A stretch of 64,000 nucleotides of DNA from contig CAJOCQ010000002.1 of NCBI GenBank assembly GCA_905233135.1, positions 1-64,000 of the forward strand, given 5' to 3'. The notes under the pieces were generated by a model. The model did no database searches, was not told the DNA's origin, and was given only the letters and a program-made list of their open reading frames with translations. The position numbers and the translations under genes are program-made. Positions 1-14,938 of this stretch are shown here, piece by piece; position 1 is the first letter of the stretch, and every line of letters begins with the position of its first letter. The DNA comes from an uncultured Selenomonadaceae bacterium. Lineage in GTDB: Bacteria > Bacillota > Negativicutes > Selenomonadales > Selenomonadaceae.

Positions 1-61
1 TTGACATAAGCATATCCTTTCGGTTTAGGTTTCAACTTTATTTTACCAAAAGTTTGTGCTT

Positions 62-214
62 ATGTTTTTTTATTTTAGGAATTTACCAACACGCCCTAAT
101 ATGTCAATAGCCGAAGTAGGCGAGGCAGAATTGGAATATTTGCTGGACTTAACGATAGTGCAAGCGAAAATGAATGCAGAGCCAATGGGCTATTTGAATG
201 ATTTTATAAAATGA
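62..214 (+). CDS. short phage ORF, possibly C-terminal part of a tail-assembly chaperone
   Basis: Open frame MFFYFRNLPTRPNMSIAEVGEAELEYLLDLTIVQAKMNAEPMGYLNDFIK directly upstream of the tape measure gene; true start may lie upstream of the window. Confidence 0.4.
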   Translation: MFFYFRNLPTRPNMSIAEVGEAELEYLLDLTIVQAKMNAEPMGYLNDFIK

Positions 215-216
215 AA

Positions 217-257
217 AAAGCCGCCGACAAGGAAGTTAGCGGCTTTACCTTTTTTTT
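217..257 (+). terminator. rho-independent terminator-like hairpin
   Basis: AAAGCCGC...GCGGCTTT stem followed by a T-rich run, just after the stop at 214. Confidence 0.6.
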
Positions 258-273
258 AAAGAGAGGTGAGAAA

Positions 274-3200
274 ATGGCAACAAATGACAATTCGGCAGGC
301 GCAGTATTTATAGAGTTAGGGCTTGATTTGAATCAGCTTGAAAGTGACTTCATAGCGGCAAATGCAACGATACAACAAAATTTGAACAGACTAAACAGAG
401 AAAGAAATATAGTAGATTTAAGAGCACAGGTAGAAATAGGCGGGCTTGATGAAAGCATAAATCAGACGCAGATTTTAGAAACAAGGCAACGTTCACTTAC
501 CCAACAATTAAGTATGCAACGCGACAGAATCAGATTGACGGAGGCGGCACACAGGCAACTCGTCAACACGCAGGGGGCGGCAAGCGCAGCGGCTCAGAAT
601 ATGGAATCAAGGTTACAGCGTGAACAACTTGCATTGCAAAGACTACAGCAACAACTTGAAAGAGTAACGACGGCACAAAGTGAACTTTCTGCAGTAAACG
701 CAACAGCGGCACAAGATACCTTGATAGAAGCGGGGCGAAGTGTACAACAGAATTTAAGCAGATTGGGGCGTGAACGTGATTTAATAGAATTGCGGGCGCA
801 AGTAGAAATAGGCGGGCTGGACGAAACTACAAACCAAAGCAAAATTCTAGAGACAAGGCAACGTTCGCTGAATGAACAGTTAAATATACAGCGGACGCGG
901 ATAAGACTTGTTGAAGAAGCGCACAGACGTTTGGCAAGCGCACAAGGCTCGGATTCTGCCGCCGTACAAGATATGGAAACAAGACTGCAAAGAGAAAGGC
1001 TTACACTGCAACGTCTTGAGCAACAATTAGACAGAGTAAGAACGGCGCAAGAAAATCTGAATAACACAAGCAGTACAAACGGCGGCGGGGCAAGCGGCAA
1101 TACAGACGGCGGATTGGATATAGGCGGTGGCGGACTTGAAGATTTAGCTGACAGTGTATTGGAGCGAATACCGCCACAAGCAAGAATAGCGGCAGGCGCA
1201 ATAGCAGGCTTAGGCGCGGCAATAATAGCGGCAGGCAAGGCGTCAACTGATTTAATTGAACGCTGGAGAGAGTTGCAGACACAAGCATATGACTTAAATA
1301 TGAGCGTGCAAGATACAGAAGATTTCTTGCGTAAATTGCGGCTTGCAGGCGGAGAATTTGAAGACTTTAAGGGCTTTATACGCGGTCTTTCAGACGCAAT
1401 GATTAAAGGCGAAATTGACGACCCAGAAGCAATGGTTTTTGCTCGATATGGTGAAAGTGCATTTGACGCCAGCGGTAAAATAAAAAACTTCCAGGCAATG
1501 ACAGAAACAATAGAACGAATGTACGACAAAGCAAAATCGGCGGGCGAAGAGATAGAATTTCTGCAAATGCTAGGCGGCGAAAGCGGCGTTACAGACGCTA
1601 TACAATATCTTGAAAGGTACAAAGAGGCAAAAGAAGACGCGGCAAAAATATCAACGGCAAAGCTTGACCCAACAGAATTTCACGAGGCGGAGCGTTCGCT
1701 AAACAGATATAACGAGCAACAGCAAGAATTTATAAACGCGCTTGAAAATTTGATAACTCCTGCAAGGGTAAGTTCGCTTGAATCACTTTTTGAAGTATTT
1801 CACGACGGTACAGAGTATTTGGTAGAAAACAAAGACGAAATACAAAGTTGGGGCTTTATAGCGGCAGAAACTTTTACAACGATAGCGGACAAAATAAAGG
1901 CGTTGAAAGACGCTTTTGTTGAATTAGCCGATACAGGGCTAAATTTCAACGATTGGGAGCAAAATGGGCGTTGGAATCGTTTGTCGGATTTAGTAAAAAG
2001 TGATTCAGAAGATACACTTTGGGCGCGTTCAACCAGTGTGTTTTTCGGCGATATAAAAGGCGAGCTTTTTGGCGGCATTTTGGAAAGGGCGGCAGAAGAG
2101 CAGGATAAATACAAAGAAGCCGTTGAAAATGCTACAGAGGCGCAAAGCAAGCAAAGCAAAAGCACTGAAGAAGGTAAAACAACTCTTGCAGATTTACGCA
2201 AGGAGCAGGAACAGGACACGGCGTCTTGGGCTGATTTTCGGCGCGAACAAGAGCAGGGAGTTCAAACAACAAAAGAAATAACGGCGGCAACTGAAGAGGC
2301 AACGGCGGCAAAACAAAAAGAAATAAACGTACTTCAGCAATATTCGATTCAGCGAGAAAAAGATTTAAGAGACGAACTCGCAGAAGTACAGATAGAAAAT
2401 CAAAACTTCAAACACGGTTACGATTTAGAATTGGCAAAGCTTGATTGGGAAAGAACAAAAGCGCGGCGGCAGAATGTATTATCGACAGGCGAGAGTTTAG
2501 CTATTGAAGATTTGTACGCTGAAAAACGCCTATTACTGGAAAAACAAACGCAAGATAAACTTGACGATTTACGAAATGAAGCTACTGAAGAATTTAAAAC
2601 AGACCTTGAAAAACGTAACATTGAAATAGAAAATTCAATGGATGACTGGATAGACGCTGGTATGAAAGAAAGCGAAGCTGAAACGCTCGCGCAGGCACTG
2701 AAGGCAAAAGCTATTGAGGATTTAGAGGAAGAATGGAATGCCCGCGTACTCGAAATTAACGGCAGTGCGCTTGAAAAGAAACTCGCCAATATCGAACGTG
2801 AAAAACAGGCGTGGATTGATAAAGGTATTTCCGAAGTAGAGGCGGAGCAACTTGCACAACAACAAAAGGCGCAAGTTTATCAGCAAGAATATGAATCAGC
2901 GGTGCAAGCTGAACAAGCCGCAGCGCAAAATGTAGAATCAGCCGAGCAAGCACTAAATGACGCACTCGAACAAAGGGAAGAATTAAGAGAGCGAATAGCC
3001 GAACAGCAGGCTAAAGAAATAACGCAGGCAGAACAAGGTTTGCAGGTTTTAAGGTCGCAGTTGGAGGCGTTTAGGGCTTATCGTGACGGTGGCGAAAAAG
3101 GCTTACAAGAATATTATTTAAAGGAACTGCGCAAGCAAGGAATAACAGACAAAGATTTAAAAATGACGCCCGCGCAGTTGGAAGGTTTTCAGCAGGCTAA

Positions 3201-4116
3201 CAGGGACGTACAAAAAGGCTTAATGCCGAATTTAGCACAGGTTGCGCCGCCTAATCCCGAAATGCTTAAACAGTTAAGCAAATTAGATGACAGGATTGCA
3301 GGATTACAAAAAAATCTTGCAGATGCACAAGCGGCACTTAAAGAGGCAACAAAGAAAAGACAAGAAGCAGAAGACGCTTACAATAATCAAAAGGCGCAAA
3401 TTCCAGATACAGTAGTTGAAGAAAATCCAGATGGTACAAAAAGCGTATGGACTGGTGATGACGCGAAAAAAAGGCTAGAAGAACTTGGTATTCTCGAAAA
3501 ACCAACTTCAACACCTGAAACTGCGTCATTTGATGAAGATTTAAAACAAAAACTTGATAGCGCGGGCAACTCGGTTGAAGATTTTAAGAAAAAGCTTGAC
3601 GAGGCTACACCTACTGAAACTCCTGAATTACCAAAAACAGAAATGCCTGCAACGGCGGCTGATATACCTACACCGACACCTGATTTTGATTTTAGCGATA
3701 TTGCGGCGAAGTTTGAAATATTGCCGCCGATTATTGAAAATATCAGCAGTGGGCTTGATAACTTGACGCCGAAAATTACAGATGTTTCAACTGCATTCAG
3801 CAACTTGTATTATACTTTCCAAAATACAAATATAGGACAAGCTGAAGGCGGTATACCCTCTGCGCCTGTTGATTTTTCAGAATTGACACAGCAGGCGGCA
3901 GAAATACTTTCGGCGATACAAACGGGCGCAAGTGACTTACAAACTGCGATAACAAATCAGCAACAATCCGCGCCGCCGAATGTTACAAACAATATCAGCA
4001 TTCACGAGGCGCACGCTTGGGATTACGAACATATTAACGATTTAGCCGAGCGCGTTGCTGATATTATCGAGCCAAAAATCTTATCTGCTGTGGGTGGTGA
4101 TTCCAATGGCTATTAA
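274..4116 (+). CDS. phage tail tape measure protein
   Basis: About 1280 aa, long coiled-coil stretches, Ala/Gly hydrophobic segment (ARIAAGAIAGLGAAIIAAGKAS), position before tail genes; ATG at 274 preceded by AGAGGTGAG. Confidence 0.85.
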   Translation: MATNDNSAGAVFIELGLDLNQLESDFIAANATIQQNLNRLNRERNIVDLRAQVEIGGLDESINQTQILETRQRSLTQQLSMQRDRIRLTEAAHRQLVNTQGAASAAAQNMESRLQREQLALQRLQQQLERVTTAQSELSAVNATAAQDTLIEAGRSVQQNLSRLGRERDLIELRAQVEIGGLDETTNQSKILETRQRSLNEQLNIQRTRIRLVEEAHRRLASAQGSDSAAVQDMETRLQRERLTLQRLEQQLDRVRTAQENLNNTSSTNGGGASGNTDGGLDIGGGGLEDLADSVLERIPPQARIAAGAIAGLGAAIIAAGKASTDLIERWRELQTQAYDLNMSVQDTEDFLRKLRLAGGEFEDFKGFIRGLSDAMIKGEIDDPEAMVFARYGESAFDASGKIKNFQAMTETIERMYDKAKSAGEEIEFLQMLGGESGVTDAIQYLERYKEAKEDAAKISTAKLDPTEFHEAERSLNRYNEQQQEFINALENLITPARVSSLESLFEVFHDGTEYLVENKDEIQSWGFIAAETFTTIADKIKALKDAFVELADTGLNFNDWEQNGRWNRLSDLVKSDSEDTLWARSTSVFFGDIKGELFGGILERAAEEQDKYKEAVENATEAQSKQSKSTEEGKTTLADLRKEQEQDTASWADFRREQEQGVQTTKEITAATEEATAAKQKEINVLQQYSIQREKDLRDELAEVQIENQNFKHGYDLELAKLDWERTKARRQNVLSTGESLAIEDLYAEKRLLLEKQTQDKLDDLRNEATEEFKTDLEKRNIEIENSMDDWIDAGMKESEAETLAQALKAKAIEDLEEEWNARVLEINGSALEKKLANIEREKQAWIDKGISEVEAEQLAQQQKAQVYQQEYESAVQAEQAAAQNVESAEQALNDALEQREELRERIAEQQAKEITQAEQGLQVLRSQLEAFRAYRDGGEKGLQEYYLKELRKQGITDKDLKMTPAQLEGFQQANRDVQKGLMPNLAQVAPPNPEMLKQLSKLDDRIAGLQKNLADAQAALKEATKKRQEAEDAYNNQKAQIPDTVVEENPDGTKSVWTGDDAKKRLEELGILEKPTSTPETASFDEDLKQKLDSAGNSVEDFKKKLDEATPTETPELPKTEMPATAADIPTPTPDFDFSDIAAKFEILPPIIENISSGLDNLTPKITDVSTAFSNLYYTFQNTNIGQAEGGIPSAPVDFSELTQQAAEILSAIQTGASDLQTAITNQQQSAPPNVTNNISIHEAHAWDYEHINDLAERVADIIEPKILSAVGGDSNGY
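430..1060 (+). repeat. internal ~372-bp tandem duplication in tape measure N-terminus
   Basis: QQNLxRLxRERxxxxLRAQVEIGGLDExxNQxxILETRQRSL...MExRLQRExLxLQRLxQQLxRVxTAQ occurs twice; gtagaaataggcgggct at 430 and 802. Confidence 0.85.
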
Positions 4117-4441
4117 AATTGGCGCGGTTGAGGCGTTTAACATAACAAATTTTGACCATATCCCTGACGACAGACAAACTAAACACGAGACAATAGGCGG
4201 CGTAGTTGTACAGGATTTCGGGCGCGTTGAAAAAGGCGATACTCTATCTTTTGAGACTGATATTAAAGCTAAGGACAAAGCGGTATTTTTTGGCTATTGG
4301 TACAATCGAACTTATGTAACAATCATTGACGAGGCGGGCAATGTTTATGAAGATTGCCGCGTCAGAGTGACAAGGCATAGGTACGTTAGTAGAGATTTTG
4401 CCAAATACGAACACTGCGTTTTAGAAATATGGAGGATATGA
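4106..4441 (+). CDS. phage structural protein (unknown)
   Basis: ATG at 4106 overlapping the tape measure stop; compact phage operon. Confidence 0.6.
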   Translation: MAIKIGAVEAFNITNFDHIPDDRQTKHETIGGVVVQDFGRVEKGDTLSFETDIKAKDKAVFFGYWYNRTYVTIIDEAGNVYEDCRVRVTRHRYVSRDFAKYEHCVLEIWRI

Positions 4442-4442
4442 A

Positions 4443-4856
4443 ATGGCGCACATACATTTATATATGAATAATCCTACCGCAGGCGGTACTGACGGTACAG
4501 AAATTTCAAGCGAAGATAACACACTCCCTCTTACAGTAATTTTGGACGCAAGCGAGGCAGAAGAAAAAGCCGTAAAAGTTGCCGTGCGTTGTGATTCAGG
4601 CTTTGCTGTTGAAGGCGACACCGCTATTTATTTTGAAGGCACAAACGCCGCCAAATGGCAAGTTGCAGAAGATAACAGCTTTACCAGTGATACCGCCTTG
4701 ACGCTTGCTCTTTGGCAAAGTACTTTGACTTTTACCAATGTTGCCGCTACTAATATTGTGTTTTGGGTTAAGGCGTCAAGTACTACTACCGAAAATCCCC
4801 AAAACGACAGGACAGTTAAACTTGTTGCCGAAGGGCTTGTTCTTTCGACGGAGTGA
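4443..4856 (+). CDS. phage structural protein (unknown)
   Basis: Complete ORF in tail operon. Confidence 0.6.
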   Translation: MAHIHLYMNNPTAGGTDGTEISSEDNTLPLTVILDASEAEEKAVKVAVRCDSGFAVEGDTAIYFEGTNAAKWQVAEDNSFTSDTALTLALWQSTLTFTNVAATNIVFWVKASSTTTENPQNDRTVKLVAEGLVLSTE

Positions 4857-4862
4857 TTTGCT

Positions 4863-5810
4863 ATGCGTTATATGAATCCAGGCTTTAAAGAATGGCTTAA
4901 TTTTGTACCATACAGTAGCAGTATTTCAAATGACACAGACGCAACAAAAACTAAAACAGGAACGGCTATTTGTAATAGCGATGGTGAAAATTGTTTCTTG
5001 CTTGATTATCCTGCAAGCGGCGAAATTTACTTTAGGTTTGATTTCTTTTATCCTACGTCCGCAAGTTCAAAGATTTATTTTGGAGAATGGGGAAACGGCT
5101 CAGAGCCTTATAACGGTTTCAGTTTAGATTTTTCAGGCAGTACTTTAAGATTTCTTAGTTTTGTTAAAAGAAGGTGGACGGAACTTTTTAGCGGCAAAAA
5201 TGTTTTAGATTTTGGATTAAAACAGGGAAGTATAATTTCAACGTTATTTCATTTAAAGTGGGCTGATACTGAAAACGGCATTATGGAATTGACTTTAAAT
5301 GATTATTCTTTTGAAAAATTTGAGAGCGCAGATTTAACGCCGTATAACAATTCAAGTGTGGAAATTTCTTTTAAAAATTATTCTTATTTTCCTGTTTCAA
5401 ATATCATTATTTCGGACGAGCCAATTTCTATCAAAGAACAACTTGCAGCGTTGCCTATTACCGGCATTGAAACTGATATGGCGTACGACAGCGATACAGG
5501 GATTTACACCGCGTCAGCTGTTAATCAATCTTTGCTTGCGTCAGTTGACGTTGCAGATTTAATCAATAATTTTGGCAGTGATTCAAAAGTTACAGGCGTT
5601 ACTATGGTTGGCAATCCCGCTTATCGTACCGCCGAAGGTTTATCGTCTTTTACTGCGCTTACCAAAAAAAATAACACCGTAACTGAATACGGCGCGGCGA
5701 ATATCCCTGCTGATTCTGATTCGGTTGTTGCCAACAGTTTCAAAGTTGCAAGCGATACCACTATTGGAGACTTAGCTAATATGCAATTAGGCTTGAAAGT
5801 TGGTGGTTGA
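4863..5810 (+). CDS. phage tail/baseplate-associated protein (unknown)
   Basis: Complete 315 aa ORF in tail operon. Confidence 0.6.
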   Translation: MRYMNPGFKEWLNFVPYSSSISNDTDATKTKTGTAICNSDGENCFLLDYPASGEIYFRFDFFYPTSASSKIYFGEWGNGSEPYNGFSLDFSGSTLRFLSFVKRRWTELFSGKNVLDFGLKQGSIISTLFHLKWADTENGIMELTLNDYSFEKFESADLTPYNNSSVEISFKNYSYFPVSNIIISDEPISIKEQLAALPITGIETDMAYDSDTGIYTASAVNQSLLASVDVADLINNFGSDSKVTGVTMVGNPAYRTAEGLSSFTALTKKNNTVTEYGAANIPADSDSVVANSFKVASDTTIGDLANMQLGLKVGG

Positions 5811-5812
5811 TT

Positions 5813-8227
5813 ATGGATGCGGCGTTTAAGCCCGAAATTTATATTTCCTACATTCCCGACGGCAAAGTTAATATTGCGCCGCAAATATACGCCTCCTACA
5901 TTCCCAACGGCAAAGTAAACATTGCGCCGCAAATTTGGGCGTCCGTTGTTTTTGTTCCGCACGTTGAAAAAGCTACTGCCGACACTTCAAGAAACCTTTC
6001 TAAGCTTGAAAATATTTCCGCTGATTCTTTGCGCAAAATTGGTATTACTGATTATTCAAATGCTGATTTATTGCGCACGGTTAAAGCTACTGAAAAAGCT
6101 ACTGCTGATACATTGCGCCGCGTTGCAATTTCTGAAGTTGTTAAATCTCGTACCTTCAGAAAATTAACCTTTAGCGAAAATGCAAGCGGCAGGTTATTTC
6201 GCCGCGTCAAAAAGTTTGAAAAAGTTCCTGCAGACACTTCAAGAAAAGTTGGCTTGACTACCGCCGCCTTCGATTTATTCAGAGTTGTTAAAGCTACTGA
6301 AAACGTTAGCGCAGATTTATTACGCCGCACGGGTAATTCTGAAAAAAGCGTTGCTGACAGCTTGCGAAAAATCACGCGCACTGAAAATATTTCTGCTGAT
6401 ACACTGCGCCGCGTTGTTGAAACTTCAAAAACCACTGCTGACACTTTGCGGAGAGTTGCCAACTTTGAAACGGCTTCTGCTGATACTTTGCGCAAAGTTT
6501 CAGTTAGTGAAAAAACTTCCGCTGATACTTACAGAAAAGTTACAGCTACTGAAAAAGCAGTTGCCGATACTTGCCGCCGTATGATTGAAAGGGCGTCCGC
6601 CGATACTTGCAGAAAAGTTACACGCGCTGAAAAATCTGTTGCTGATACTGTTTTGAGACTGCCGCACGTTTTAAATTTTATCGCGCAGGATTCGCTTGTT
6701 GACACTTTCAAAGATTATGATTTAGCTTTGTTTGAAGTTACACTTTCAGAGCGTACACTTTCAGACACTTTTGCACTTGAAACCGCGCGGCAGATTGAAA
6801 TTAATGACGCGATTAAAGGTACGTTTTTAGATTATCCCTTCAGCTTTTTGGTTGAAGAAACTACAAAGCGGGATTTATTTTTGAGCGTCAAGGGTATGTA
6901 TGATATTGATAAATTGCTGTACTCGTTTATTGAAACAGACCTGCGCGAAGAAAGAGCAGATGAAGGCGGCTATTACAAGGCGTCAAGTTATATCAGCAGA
7001 ATTGCCGCCTATTTGGGATTTTCGCCGAATATCAAGATTGAAGATTTCACGCCGTATAATTTGATTGGCAACACAAATATTACCTATTCAGACCTAATCA
7101 GCAGTTTGTTTAGTTGGACTTCAAAACTGCCGCAACGTCAAATTAATGTTTTTATACGCGGCGGCATTTTGCATTGTATTCAACGCGGCTACGAAGATTC
7201 TGTTTTCGATATTTCTGATATTCCACACTCCAGACCAACTGTTAATAAAAAGCTCCTGCGCTCGATGTACAACAGCCCTTTTGATTCTGATGACGATTTG
7301 GGCGAAGAGGCTTATGATAAACCTTTCAGCGGCACTATTGGTTATACAGACGCTTACAGCAGTAACTCAATAACATATTTTGGCGGCTTACTGCAAAAAG
7401 AATATTCACGCTCGAACAATTCAACAACCACGACAATAAGCAGTTCAGAATATAAATATACATCATTTCATATTGAAGGCGAAACTCAATATTATCTTGA
7501 TTCAAAGTCAACAAAAACTGATTCTATTAATTGGGAAGAAAAAACACGTACCATTGAAGAAGTCAAAACAGAATACATTTATACATTTTCGCACGAACAA
7601 ACTATTGAAGACGACGAAGACGGGAAAGGCTTGCATTATGGTTTGCGTACTGAAGTTTATATGCGCGAAGAAGTTGAAACTAAAAAAACAACCACGCTAA
7701 GCGGCGACGGCTTAGGCTGGAATTGGAGCGCGGCTGAAACTGAAACAAGTATTAGAAAGACACTGCACACACCAGCAGGCAACGGTTGGTATTCTACAAC
7801 AGTTTATGAAAACGGCGAACATATGGGCAGTACAATTTCACAAGGCGCACCGAGTAACCAAGTTTCACTCTATACCACACAGAGAATAAGACAGATTTTC
7901 GGCACGCAGTCAACAGACCCTGACGAAATATACGAAGAAAACCGCTCAAGGCTTACGCCTATTGCCGATACTTCATTTCCTGTACAGGAGTTAGATTTAA
8001 TTCAAAGACTTACAGATGATTTAAAATGGCTTAACAGAAAAATCCAAATTACAGTTTCAGTAGATTTAATCAGCAAAATTGAAAAAGGCGTACCGACATT
8101 AAAGCATATTGTAGACTTTACAGAGCGCGTAAAACTTGACGGCTACGAATATTTTTTAGTCAGCAACAGAATCAGCTTCACGCCGAGAAAATTAATTCAA
8201 TCTTTGCAGTTAGTGAGGTGGCAATAA
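5813..8227 (+). CDS. large phage tail protein with 14-residue repeat array
   Basis: About 804 aa, N-terminal EKxxADTLRRVx repeats; ATG 5813 overlaps end of preceding gene region. Confidence 0.7.
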   Translation: MDAAFKPEIYISYIPDGKVNIAPQIYASYIPNGKVNIAPQIWASVVFVPHVEKATADTSRNLSKLENISADSLRKIGITDYSNADLLRTVKATEKATADTLRRVAISEVVKSRTFRKLTFSENASGRLFRRVKKFEKVPADTSRKVGLTTAAFDLFRVVKATENVSADLLRRTGNSEKSVADSLRKITRTENISADTLRRVVETSKTTADTLRRVANFETASADTLRKVSVSEKTSADTYRKVTATEKAVADTCRRMIERASADTCRKVTRAEKSVADTVLRLPHVLNFIAQDSLVDTFKDYDLALFEVTLSERTLSDTFALETARQIEINDAIKGTFLDYPFSFLVEETTKRDLFLSVKGMYDIDKLLYSFIETDLREERADEGGYYKASSYISRIAAYLGFSPNIKIEDFTPYNLIGNTNITYSDLISSLFSWTSKLPQRQINVFIRGGILHCIQRGYEDSVFDISDIPHSRPTVNKKLLRSMYNSPFDSDDDLGEEAYDKPFSGTIGYTDAYSSNSITYFGGLLQKEYSRSNNSTTTTISSSEYKYTSFHIEGETQYYLDSKSTKTDSINWEEKTRTIEEVKTEYIYTFSHEQTIEDDEDGKGLHYGLRTEVYMREEVETKKTTTLSGDGLGWNWSAAETETSIRKTLHTPAGNGWYSTTVYENGEHMGSTISQGAPSNQVSLYTTQRIRQIFGTQSTDPDEIYEENRSRLTPIADTSFPVQELDLIQRLTDDLKWLNRKIQITVSVDLISKIEKGVPTLKHIVDFTERVKLDGYEYFLVSNRISFTPRKLIQSLQLVRWQ
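5963..6662 (+). repeat. about 17 degenerate 42-bp (14 aa) tandem repeats
   Basis: TEKATADTLRRVA / RTENISADTLRRVV / ETSKTTADTLRRVA / NFETASADTLRKVS / VSEKTSADTYRKVT etc. Confidence 0.9.
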
Positions 8228-8445
8228 TGAGTATTGAAAGTTTAGGGAACTCTATTAAATCAGCAGTAGATAAGCGCGTTAACTCAGAGGCGCGGGCAAT
8301 GCGCGGCACTATTCGTAACGGCAGATTTGTTTCAGGTTCAAAGTCTTATCCTTACACGGCGGCGGTTGATTGTAACACGGGCGAAGGCGCAAAAGTTTGG
8401 GCGCAGAAGTCAACAAGCGGTAAAGCAGTTATTATTGGAGCTTGA
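8227..8445 (+). CDS. small phage protein (unknown)
   Basis: ATG overlaps the upstream TAA. Confidence 0.55.
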   Translation: MSIESLGNSIKSAVDKRVNSEARAMRGTIRNGRFVSGSKSYPYTAAVDCNTGEGAKVWAQKSTSGKAVIIGA

Positions 8446-8447
8446 TT

Positions 8448-9500
8448 ATGTACAAAGCTAGAGTTGAGACTGTAAGCGGTACAAAAGTTAGGGCGGGCGG
8501 TAAATGGCTAACCTGCATTGGCAATAAAAATGTTAGAGTTGGCGACAATATCTGGACGGACGGCAGGTGCGTTTACGGCAATGAATATACACCACAGCAA
8601 CCTATTGTTATTACAGGCAAAGATGAATTTGGGATACCTTTAGCTGGTTACTTAGGCTCTGTAATCCGAAAACCATTTGTTGGTTATTATGAATTAAAAA
8701 CGGGGAATATTAAGTATTTCCCAACCGATGAAATATATCTTTGGAACACCAATAACAAAAAAACTATCGTTTACGATAAAGCGGCGTGTGCATTGAATAT
8801 AGACCGCCAAAATAACTTTTATTCAATCAAAAGATATTGGAGCGGGCGGTATGCAACGCCTGAAACACTTAAATTTGAGCTTTTAAAAAATAATAAAATT
8901 TTTAAAACTATTAATATACAGAATGTTATTTCTAACGATTTTCACGTTAATAGGATTCACGCTTTTATTGACGATGAGTATAATTGGCAAATTATGGTAT
9001 ATCTGGTTGAAAATATTCAGGACACAACGGCGGATTTATTCAACAGTATTTTAATAATAGATACGACAGGAATTAATCATAGCGTTTGGCATACAGATAA
9101 TCCGCACCTTACTATTCCTATGCACGACGGGTTTTATTATAAGATTGATACTCCTGAAATTGAGAATTATTATGCGGCTGCGCCCATTTTCGACGTTGCG
9201 TTATATTCCCACGAAGGGGATTTTATAGCAACTATTCCTAAGTGTAGTTTTACAGCTTGTTTATCAGCTTATAAAATTTCGCCAAACAAATTTTTAATAG
9301 CTATACACAATCACGCCTTTATGTTTTCAAACGTAATGGTGACTACTTTACCAGAGGAAGGACTTTATATTTGTGACAATGGCGTTTTGACTAAATTAGA
9401 GCACTTAATTTTAACCAATCAGTGTTTACGCCCAATGAAGCACTATAAGCGTTGGTGGGAGAGGATTCAGGAAATAGAAGAAGGTGATGACAATGAATGA
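8448..9500 (+). CDS. phage tail/receptor-associated protein (unknown)
   Basis: 350 aa complete ORF between baseplate-like genes and holin. Confidence 0.55.
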   Translation: MYKARVETVSGTKVRAGGKWLTCIGNKNVRVGDNIWTDGRCVYGNEYTPQQPIVITGKDEFGIPLAGYLGSVIRKPFVGYYELKTGNIKYFPTDEIYLWNTNNKKTIVYDKAACALNIDRQNNFYSIKRYWSGRYATPETLKFELLKNNKIFKTINIQNVISNDFHVNRIHAFIDDEYNWQIMVYLVENIQDTTADLFNSILIIDTTGINHSVWHTDNPHLTIPMHDGFYYKIDTPEIENYYAAAPIFDVALYSHEGDFIATIPKCSFTACLSAYKISPNKFLIAIHNHAFMFSNVMVTTLPEEGLYICDNGVLTKLEHLILTNQCLRPMKHYKRWWERIQEIEEGDDNE

Positions 9501-9882
9501 AATAAGGGTAACGGCGGCGATAATAGGTACAGCTGTAGCAAGGTGGTTGGGAGGGTTTGACGGCTTATTAATTGCTTTAATCGGCTTTATGATTGTCGAT
9601 TATATTACAGGCGTTTTTTGCGCGGTTATCGAGCATAAACTGTCAAGCGAAGTTGGAGCTAAAGGCATTCTGCGGAAAGTGCTTGTTATTATTATGGTCG
9701 GCGTTGCAAATACGCTTGACTTGTACATTGTTGAAGGCGACCAGCCGCTGTTACGTACAGCGGTTATTTTTTTCTATTTAAGCAACGAAGGTATTTCTAT
9801 CTTAGAAAATTCTGTTCGGCTGGGCTTGCCTGTGCCCGACAAGCTGAAAGAAATTTTGTTGCAGATTAAAAGCAAAACTTAG
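9493..9882 (+). CDS. phage holin family protein
   Basis: Hydrophobic segments GLLIALIGFMIVDYITGVFCAV and VLVIIMVGVANTLDLYIV typical of the TcdE/holin_4-like family. Confidence 0.8.
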   Translation: MNEIRVTAAIIGTAVARWLGGFDGLLIALIGFMIVDYITGVFCAVIEHKLSSEVGAKGILRKVLVIIMVGVANTLDLYIVEGDQPLLRTAVIFFYLSNEGISILENSVRLGLPVPDKLKEILLQIKSKT

Positions 9883-9906
9883 GGATTTTATATCGAGGTG
9901 ATTGAT

Positions 9907-10272
9907 ATGACAAAAAATAAACGCGGCAGACCGTTGAAAGAAATTAACAAAGATAACTTTGAAAAACTCTGCGGCTTGCAATGTACGTTGCTTGAAATGT
10001 TATGTTTTTTTGATGTGTCCGATAAAACATTAGAGGATTGGTGCAAGCGTACTTACGGGCTTAATTTTTCCGAAGTATTCAATTTAAAAAGAAACGCAGG
10101 ACTTATCAGCTTGCGCCGCGCACAATTCAGACTTGCACAGAAAAACGCCGCTATGGCTATTTTTCTCGGCAAGAATTATTTAGGGCAAGTTGACAAGGAT
10201 ATTTGGCAACGCGCACAAGACGAAAAAGCATTGGAACTGAAAGAAAAAGCAATAGAAGAGGCGGCGTGGTAA
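9907..10272 (+). CDS. HTH phage protein, small-terminase-like
   Basis: KRGRPLKEINKDNFEKLCGLQCTLLEMLCFFDVSDKTLEDWCKRTYG...ISLRRAQFRLAQKNAAMAIFLGKNYLGQ. Confidence 0.6.
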   Translation: MTKNKRGRPLKEINKDNFEKLCGLQCTLLEMLCFFDVSDKTLEDWCKRTYGLNFSEVFNLKRNAGLISLRRAQFRLAQKNAAMAIFLGKNYLGQVDKDIWQRAQDEKALELKEKAIEEAAW

Positions 10273-10949
10273 TGGCGCAGATATGGGCTAAACAATTCTA
10301 CAATTCCAAAGCGTGGCGACAACTGCGCGAACGGCTGATTGTTGAAAATAATTTCCTGTGCGCTGATTGCGGCGAAAGTTACTTGAAAGATTCAACGCAA
10401 CTTGTAGGACACCACATTAAACCCTTGACGCCCGAAAATATAAATGACGCAAATATTTCTCTCAATCCCGCAAATATAAAAATAATCTGCCGCAAATGTC
10501 ACGATAAAGCGCACGAAAGATTTTCTTTTGACACGGGACAAAATGTTTATCTTGTTTACGGCGCACCTTGCAGTGGTAAAAGTACCTACGTTAATCAATT
10601 AGCAAGGCGCAATGATTTAATCGTTGACCTTGACGCTATTTACGCCGCAATTTCTTTATCTCCATACCACGAACACCCAAACAATTTAAAGCGCGTTGCC
10701 TTCGCAGTGCGTGATACGCTGATTGAACAAATACGCCTGCGCGTTGGGTTTTGGCACGACGCCTTCATTGTCGGCGGCTATCCGCGCAAGTTACAGCGTG
10801 AACAGTTGGCGGCGAAGGTAGGCGCAGAGCTTGTCTACATTGATTCAACGATTGAACAGGCAAAGGCGACAGCAACACTGACGCGCGGAGCATTGGCTAA
10901 GCAGTGGCACGGTTACATTGATAATTGGTTTGACGCCTTCGAGCCGTGA
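10272..10949 (+). CDS. HNH endonuclease fused to a P-loop kinase-like domain
   Basis: HNH: CADCGESYLKDSTQLVGHHIKPLTPENINDANISLNPANIKIICRKCHDKAH; Walker A: VYGAPCSGKSTYVNQLA. Confidence 0.85.
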   Translation: MAQIWAKQFYNSKAWRQLRERLIVENNFLCADCGESYLKDSTQLVGHHIKPLTPENINDANISLNPANIKIICRKCHDKAHERFSFDTGQNVYLVYGAPCSGKSTYVNQLARRNDLIVDLDAIYAAISLSPYHEHPNNLKRVAFAVRDTLIEQIRLRVGFWHDAFIVGGYPRKLQREQLAAKVGAELVYIDSTIEQAKATATLTRGALAKQWHGYIDNWFDAFEP

Positions 10950-11040
10950 TACCCCCCCCGCTCAAGTGCGTTGCAAGGGGGCGGCAGACCGGCTTGGGAT
11001 TACATTTTTTTTATCGGCACCAAATTTTTGACTTTTTCTG
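10950..11040. other. candidate phage cos/packaging region
   Basis: C8 tract and CCCCCCCCGCTCAAGTGCGTTGCAAGGGGGCGG between HNH and small-terminase-like genes. Confidence 0.35.
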
Positions 11041-11072
11041 AAAACGATTGAAAATGAAAGTAAGGCGCAGAA

Positions 11073-11381
11073 ATGGAAAAAGAATACGAGAGAATAAAAG
11101 CTTTGTTTAAAGATGTAGACGAAAAGCAACTGCAATTAGTTGACGGCGCAATAATAGAGGCGGCAAGAATACGCGCAGAACTTGACAGATTGCACGAAAT
11201 AGCAAAGGTTACAGGGCTAATTAAGGTAGACCCAAATAACCCTACGCGCCAAAAAGTATTGCCTGTCTCTAAAGAATTGCCGAAATTACGCGCAAGCTAC
11301 ACGAACATTATTTTTAAGCTTGCAAGGATTTTGGGCGCAGGTATTAATGAAGAAGATTTAGGGCTTGACGATTATATTTGA
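11073..11381 (+). CDS. P27-family-like small terminase subunit
   Basis: IIEAARIRAELDRLHEIAKVTGLIKVDPNNPTRQKVLPVSKELPKLRASYTNIIFKLARILG. Confidence 0.5.
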   Translation: MEKEYERIKALFKDVDEKQLQLVDGAIIEAARIRAELDRLHEIAKVTGLIKVDPNNPTRQKVLPVSKELPKLRASYTNIIFKLARILGAGINEEDLGLDDYI

Positions 11382-11400
11382 AATAAAAGGATGTGATTTT

Positions 11401-11859
11401 ATGCGTTATGTCATTACAGACACTTCAATTACAAGAATCAGTGAAACATACGGCACGATACAGAATGTAGGTAGGGATAAGATTGAACTTTCCAACTCTG
11501 CTGATTTTGCTGATGTTTTTGTGTTGTATTCGCTGAATCAAGTTTCTTTTAACGAGCCGCTGTATATCAGAGCCTTTGATAACGGCGCAAAAAGTTTCAA
11601 TATCCCTGTAAACGTTGTGCAGTTTATAGTAAGCGACACTTCAAGCGGCGGCGGTACTACTGCCGATGATACAACGATTGAAGATTTTGAAAAATATATT
11701 GAAGAAATATTTAGCGGCGAAAATTCAGAAACTATTGATGACCCTGATTTTAATTCCTACGTTGAAAGTATTTTCAACGGCAATATTTCGGTTACTACAG
11801 ACAATGACGATTTTAACTCGTACATTGACAATATTTTTGAAAATAGCGCGGCGGGCTAG
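11401..11859 (+). CDS. phage tail-fibre-associated protein with C-terminal repeats
   Basis: ATG at 11401; DFxxYIExIFxG motif repeated three times at the C-terminus. Confidence 0.5.
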   Translation: MRYVITDTSITRISETYGTIQNVGRDKIELSNSADFADVFVLYSLNQVSFNEPLYIRAFDNGAKSFNIPVNVVQFIVSDTSSGGGTTADDTTIEDFEKYIEEIFSGENSETIDDPDFNSYVESIFNGNISVTTDNDDFNSYIDNIFENSAAG

Positions 11860-12624: not shown

Positions 12625-12692
12625 TTTCTAATTTTTTCCTCACGGCGGGCGCGGAGTTTTTTCTGCGCCCGTTTTTTTAGGAGGTGTTTTTA

Positions 12693-14282
12693 TTGTCTGA
12701 AACAACTTTGATTTCTTTTGAAGGTTTGCAAGCTCAAACTGAAAGAATTGTCGATAACGTTATTAAAAAAGTTGCAGTGAATATTTCAGCGGCGGCAAAT
12801 AACGCTATCACTAAAAAAAATGACGGTTTACACGTAGATATAAGCGGCAAAGTTGACAAGGTTAAAAACGCAACTGCAGGTAATATCCCGGTTTTTGATT
12901 CGGACGGTAAAATTGCCGATTCTGCGGTTGCTGTTGACGGCGTTATTAAAAAAGTTGCAGGCGCAAAGGTCGGCAATATTCCTACCTTTGACAGCGACGG
13001 CGGATTGATTGACAGCGGAATAAACTTTGAGAAACTAGATCACCTCGTGCGTCACCTCGTGCGTTACGGCTACAGAATCAAGAAAACCGAACCAGACCCT
13101 TACGCGCGTGTTGAATATATTTACGACGCTGTTGGCTTTACGCCGGCAAAAATGGATTTTGAAAACGATACTTTTAATTTCGGCAGTTGGAGCGATGTTT
13201 GGTTTGTTAAAGATATTAAACCGCTTATGCTTAAAAACGACGGCACTGTTGACTATTATCTATATGAAAACGACTACTCGATAAAGGCAAACGGCGACGA
13301 CGTAACAACGCCCAGCACTGCCGCCGATTCTGATTCGGACGTTGCCAACACCGAGTACGAAGGCAACGCTATGGTGCAAATCCCCTTAATTTGGGTAAAG
13401 CGTTATGAAGATGATGACTACATTTACGAAATTGTTTCAAATGTTAAATGGGACAAAAACTATAAGGCGTATGCACACACAAACGCAAGTGGTCAAGTTA
13501 AGCAGTATTTTTATTACAGTATGTTTGATGGTTCTGGTAGTTCAAGCAGTATTAGGTCATTGTCTAGTAAGACTGTGAGTAAATCACTTACAGCTTCACA
13601 GCAAATTCAAGGTGCAACTGCAAATGGAACTGGTTGGTATATCCACACTTGGAGCCAGAGAGAATTAATTCGTACTCTCTGTATTCTCCTGGGTAAGAGT
13701 ACGGATACTTAGACCGTCTTCGGAACTGGTCGAGCAACTGGTTTTGGAGGCACGGATTCTACGATTAATACGGGTACACTTATGAACAAAGGTATGTTCT
13801 GGGGTAGTTCTTCAAATACATCTGCTGTCAAAGTTTTCCATATCGAAAACTTCTGGGGCAATCAATGGGATAAAACTGCTGGATTAATTCTTAATTATAC
13901 TGATGGATATGTATATGTGAAGATGACTCCAGAAGGTGAAGGTTATCGTGTAACTGACACCAACGGAATGACAAAGACCACGGCAATTCCCGCTATTGGA
14001 GAATTAAAATACATTTCATCTTGCAAAGCGGCTGTCGAAGGAGCAGACGATTTTGGCGTTATTCCTGTCGGAGTTACAAGCGGCAGTGCTTCAACGTATT
14101 ACTGCGACAGTTATTGGCGGCGTTCTGGTTCAGCGTATCCGAGCGGTAACATTGGATATCTCTTAGCTGGTGGCTGCTCGTACCACGCGGCGTCGGTCTC
14201 GGGCGCGTTCACGTTCATTGTCAGCGATGCGCCTTCGTATGCGGCCTGGTACTTCGGCTGCGGCCTCTCTTACATCGGCTAA
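12693..14282 (+). pseudogene. phage tail fibre / C-type-lectin-like DGR-target-like protein with in-frame amber
   Basis: TTG start after TTAGGAGGTG; TAG at 13710-13712; same frame stays open to 14282, ending GGCSYHAASVSGAFTFIVSDAPSYAAWYFGCGLSYIG. Confidence 0.7.
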
Positions 14283-14295
14283 AGGAGTTAGTATT

Positions 14296-14568
14296 ATGAC
14301 AGAATGGCAATTAGTACAAGGTTCACAAGAAGAAAGACCGTTGGAATTAGACACAACGTCGAGTAGTTTTTTTGTTTATCAGCGAAAAAATATTCAGCGT
14401 GTAACTGCCACAGACGATTTAACCCAAAATACTTATGAATATTGGGAATATGAAGAGCGCAAATTGACAAAAGACGAATATTCAAGGATACGCGAAGCGG
14501 AGCTTGAGGAAGAATTGACCCAAACTCAGCTTGCTTTAGCTGAAATTTACGAAAGTGCGGTGGTTTAA
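14296..14568 (+). CDS. phage protein downstream of the DGR-like target
   Basis: ATG 14296 with AAAGGAG SD; 90 aa acidic C-terminus. Confidence 0.6.
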   Translation: MTEWQLVQGSQEERPLELDTTSSSFFVYQRKNIQRVTATDDLTQNTYEYWEYEERKLTKDEYSRIREAELEEELTQTQLALAEIYESAVV

Positions 14569-14679
14569 TTGGCTAAAATTTATGTTGCATTAATTAAAAA
14601 AGGCTTGAAAAAACTTGAGGACGTGCCTGAAAAATTGCGCGCAGAAGTTGAAAAAATCTTGAAGGAAGAAACCCAATGA
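14569..14679 (+). CDS. 36-aa phage protein resembling the CD1375-like family
   Basis: TTG start; MAKIYVALIKKGLKKLEDVPEKLRAEVEKILKEETQ. Confidence 0.6.
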   Translation: MAKIYVALIKKGLKKLEDVPEKLRAEVEKILKEETQ

Positions 14680-14938
14680 AACAGCAAGCTCTAATGCCGC
14701 TACTTATACCATAAGTTGACGCGAGGGGAGGTGGTGACTATGGAAGATTTCCTGCCCAAGATTCTTGAGTTGGGCGTTTTAGGTACGAATTTTTCTCTAT
14801 AGCCTATAGGTAGACTACAAAACAGCTGAAAAAGCATTGATATTGCTGATGTACAATTATATCTATGAAAATCTTTAAAAAGAAGCGGTAGCAGGTAACC
14901 CCGCCCTCTAACTAAGTCCTCATAAGTTATGGCAAACT

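Follow-up and report, generated by a model that had tools for sequence, protein, structure and literature searches.

The tail gene that ends at position 14282 of the window (the whole stretch analysed here, 64,000 nucleotides of a contig from an uncultured Selenomonadaceae bacterium) raises the question of whether its C-terminal region is a DGR target and, if so, whether it is still being diversified. An earlier note, made from the sequence alone, placed a DGR-like variable region (VR) at the end of this gene, saw neither a reverse transcriptase (RT) nor a template repeat (TR), and proposed that the region was either diversified in trans or the orphan of a lost DGR. The features on which our analysis rests are as follows.

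211–11859 (+): rest of the tail and lysis part of the prophage, with a tape-measure-like gene, tail genes, a holin gene and an HNH/terminase-small-like gene
12684–14282 (+): broken gene for a tail protein of DGR type (phrog_5302), 532 aa if read through
13710–13712 (+): in-frame TAG in place of Gln, from homolog comparison
13782–14282 (+): 166-aa ORF from the ORF list, the 3' part of the broken tail gene
14160–14273 (+): VR, 38 codons, from the gap-free alignment to the TRs of relatives
14283–14295 (+): 13-bp spacer with a ribosome-binding site, where relatives have a hairpin, the TR and the RT (1.29–2.18 kb)
14296–14568 (+): small conserved gene (phrog_18126), which follows the RT in DGR-bearing relatives
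14569–14679 (+): tiny ORF of 36 aa (phrog_1382)
14740–14802 (+): beginning of the next phage gene, cut short; the longer counterpart is L058 24–293 (−)

A DGR-VR-like sequence was indeed present at the C-terminus, but its extent, given previously as 14150–14282, was corrected to 14160–14273, the final 38 conserved codons of the tail gene. The VR coincides with a GC peak (61%, versus about 35–50% nearby), as the earlier note had seen, and is strongly depleted in A (10 A in 114 bases; AT skew of −0.44). The layout described for it is beyond chance, since the VR and the TRs of intact DGRs can be aligned gap-free, each codon against its counterpart. The ORF at 13782–14282, on which the note drew, corresponds only to the 3' part of the tail gene: 12684–13712 and 13782–14282 lie in one frame, split only by the TAG at 13710–13712, which had been overlooked, and the two halves match adjoining parts of the phrog_5302 profile. 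A Gln occupies the TAG site in 129 of 131 homologs (CAG in 88, CAA in 41), which is most simply explained by one CAG-to-TAG (C-to-T nonsense) change. An alternative code in which TAG specifies Gln was considered and rejected: two other prophage genes, the holin gene (stop at 9882) and the one that terminates at 11859, have TAG as their normal stop, so a general recoding of TAG in the prophage is unlikely, and the window contains no tRNA gene. The target reading frame, which would be open in a complete and active DGR, is therefore interrupted here.

The AlphaFold2 model of read-through residues 125–532 (TAG read as Q, alignment of 37) had a pLDDT of 92, and among PDB structures Foldseek matched it best to the DGR variable protein TaqVP (E = 1.6e-10), followed by a weak match to Mtd of BPP-1 (E = 0.03). 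The model thus has the C-terminal C-type-lectin-fold variable domain of a DGR variable protein. A sequence search of PDB chains with the tail protein gave no match, and BPP-1 Mtd and Thermus aquaticus TaqVP, which like the window protein combine a C-type-lectin fold with a C-terminal VR, have no detectable sequence similarity to it. Mtd and TaqVP are each accompanied by a complete DGR. The window protein is a phage tail protein with a C-type-lectin fold, and probably a receptor-binding one.

A single-protein search of genome contigs yielded no relatives of the tail protein, but these were recovered with an alignment query. Our census comprised the 102 homologs whose records extend 1.2 kb or more beyond the target gene. 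An RT lay directly downstream in 87 of them and an A-only TR was present in 84 of these 87, such that 84 of the 102 homologs are DGR targets, with both RT and A-only TR, at the same site. The gene order in the DGR-bearing homologs is target, TR, RT and small conserved gene. The distance from the target stop codon to the small gene is 1.29–2.18 kb in RT-bearing loci but only 13 bp in the window, where the spacer carries the ribosome-binding site AAAGGAG; the whole cassette is therefore missing exactly at its usual site. The DGR tail protein of the Butyrivibrio phages Idris and Arawn (MN882554, NC_048848) is homologous to the window protein and the same small gene lies downstream, but Idris has an A-only TR and an RT between the two genes and the window has neither. 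The exact VR-framework pattern had no match in viral contigs and, in 189 genomes of the family, was found only in the window itself. Our literature searches gave no description of this phrog_5302 tail-target family.

The absence of an RT and of a near-identical TR, reported in the earlier note, extends beyond the 64-kb window. The assembly gave no match to PF00078 (RVT_1) or to the Idris RT, and no second VR copy or template, including one differing at A positions, was identified by BLAST or with an N-masked framework pattern. A plasmid search was also negative, and no close strain was found with which the invariance of the VR could be compared. Since the assembly is 86% complete and in 35 contigs, an RT may still lie elsewhere. 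Many RT-bearing relatives have a GC-rich hairpin downstream from the VR (median stem of 7 bp); this is likewise lacking in the window, which scored 8 versus a minimum of 9 over 90 RT-bearing loci.

Continued action in trans on the VR by a DGR elsewhere in the cell, carried for example by an unassembled element or a co-infecting phage, is very improbable. Remote targets do exist in the family: L089, which has no local RT, matches the TR of L075 on the same contig over 80 nt except at 13 positions, all of them template A, and the same pattern was observed for L155 and L143 on a bacterial genome contig. Each of these contigs has two tail-target copies, the DGR-less copy being about 25 kb off. From the sequence comparison, the DGR-less copies, L089 and L155, are apparently served from the distant template. 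However, both retain the GC-rich hairpin after the VR that is absent from the window and that is required, in BPP-1, for efficient homing (PMC3240598). With neither RT nor template in the assembled genome, no hairpin, and a TAG breaking the reading frame upstream from the VR, the in-trans proposal of the earlier note is not sustained, and ongoing diversification of the window VR is very unlikely.

A still less probable alternative is that the protein belongs to a DGR-less branch that was never diversified, its likeness to a VR reflecting the lectin fold alone. The tree contains 14 rows without an RT and does not on its own show whether gain or loss came first, but a cassette is found at the same place in most homologs across it. 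The nearest relatives (L060, L063–L066 and L141; 54–59% identity) are Selenomonadaceae-type prophages or viral contigs, L141 being the prophage DGR of Anaerovibrio lipolyticus DSM 3074. In our quick tree, the window fell within a group of 11 rows (SH-aLRT support of 99%) including six RT-bearing loci, with a best identity of 59%. These relatives share the VR framework of the window but have an RT, a post-VR hairpin and, in all cases but L063, a TR, none of which is present in the window.

The TRs of these relatives align codon for codon and without gaps to the window VR, and the changes are concentrated at template A, which argues against a protein that was never diversified. No TR of the window's own was found, and the A-site tests were therefore performed against those of the relatives: at codon positions 1 and 2, comparison with the L064 TR showed 15 of 24 A sites to be changed versus 6 of 52 other sites (p = 1e-5), and over five relatives' TRs the values ranged from 12/19 to 16/24 for A sites and from 6/52 to 7/39 for non-A sites (p = 9e-4 to 6e-6). 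The window VR thus varies at template adenines, as expected of a DGR variable protein, but because no template compared is its own, the pattern is evidence of ancestry rather than of present activity. Furthermore, the A sites are also the exposed positions tolerated by the fold, so part of the pattern could be due to ordinary drift. The third bases argue against drift: C or T is retained in all 11 codons at template-variable sites, versus 15 of the 27 other VR codons (p = 0.006, a result resting on 11 codons), and this also speaks against a target that was never diversified.

Assemblies are known to fail at DGR repeats (PMC8008677), but an artefact in which the VR/TR repeat led the assembler to skip the cassette is barely credible. 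A VR–TR collapse would spare the downstream RT, which is also missing here, and only 13 bp, with a normal ribosome-binding site, separate the target from the next gene. Moreover, an equally compact junction, next to a VR that has decayed further, is found in a same-genus genome assembled independently (L058/L172). VR–TR collapse was also rejected as the route of loss, because the RT has gone too.

The most satisfactory explanation, which we consider very probable, is that the VR was orphaned by loss of the DGR cassette, after which the prophage decayed and the tail gene was stopped. The orphan proposed in the earlier note is well supported by the absence of the cassette at its usual site, the A-site pattern and the disappearance of the hairpin. 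In the ancestral DGR, the RT would have copied the adjacent TR with errors at adenines, and the mutagenised cDNA would have replaced the VR of the tail gene. Everything between the stop codon of the target and the ribosome-binding site preceding the small gene would then have been lost, including the template, the RT and the targeting hairpin, and the last VR variant would have been frozen; during later decay, a C-to-T nonsense change would have interrupted the tail gene, and the last of the phage genes would have been cut short. We infer past retrohoming in this lineage, this order of events and the present inactivity of the locus from the features described above.

The surroundings of the gene show further signs of decay. 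The phage gene that follows the small gene and the tiny ORF (14740–14802) is shortened relative to L058, and next comes a flagellin gene on the opposite strand; this truncated last gene and the TAG mark a defective prophage end. The window's contig begins just before the tape-measure gene, and the matching head module is located on another contig of the assembly, C27 (L196), which carries the only portal-family match and has terL, portal, protease, capsid, connector and tail genes up to the contig end. Short similar sequences occur at the end of C27 and in window positions 1–100, GGGCGTGTTGG and its complement (CCAACACGCCC). They are probable insertion-sequence ends, and their positions suggest that one element would split one prophage between its tail-assembly and tape-measure genes. 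The large-terminase-like ORF of C27 (L196, 5852–8626; 924 aa) contains, as judged by eye, an apparent intein, a Hint-like block ending in HFTATHN, after which the ATPase part resumes. In the window, the HNH/terminase-small-like genes (9898–11381) lie between the holin gene and the tail-fibre genes; such an order is unusual in tailed phages and possibly due to a rearrangement or a second remnant.

Quite possibly, although we stop short of calling it probable, the DGR cassette (hairpin, TR and RT) is, in this tail protein family, a removable unit that has repeatedly been lost between almost identical boundaries, the stop codon after the VR and the ribosome-binding site preceding the following gene, fixing one receptor-binding variant. 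In the quick tree, the RT-negative label must have changed at least 11 times to fit the strongly supported branches. Because remote targets (L089/L155) and incomplete viral records are counted among these changes, the true losses are fewer. Repeated loss has been suggested as one possible cause of the patchy distribution of DGRs, and distal targets have been reported, in one case, beside a decayed RT copy (PMC3521204). The viral contig L133 is a clean orphan resembling the window: the small gene begins 18 bp after the VR gene, and there is no RT on the 17-kb record and no strong hairpin. Unlike that of the window, its gene is open and its loss is recent, the VR matching the TR of the sister locus L131, within the repeat, except at A. 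L131, with the cassette, and L133, without it, are 98% identical over 1.8 kb ending at the stop codon, but their downstream small genes are only 87% identical, and recombination with a DGR-less relative is therefore as likely as simple deletion. The adjacent RT matches of L131 (6702–7580) lie in two separate open frames, possibly frameshifted, and even this cassette-bearing member may be inactive. L086 (6409–6693) has a target and a TR, with no RT detected on the 12.7-kb record, a possible case of RT-only loss.

The kind of case described here is known, but its documentation, with a clean junction, remote-target controls and a plus/minus pair, is unusual. RT-centred DGR searches miss orphan VRs, for which this case and its census of 102 homologs offer a means of recognition: the A-site pattern, the C/T third bases and the compact junction. 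A template match together with the hairpin separates remote targets still served in trans from frozen relics, and the frequency with which phages shut down diversification, and their reasons for doing so, thereby become testable.
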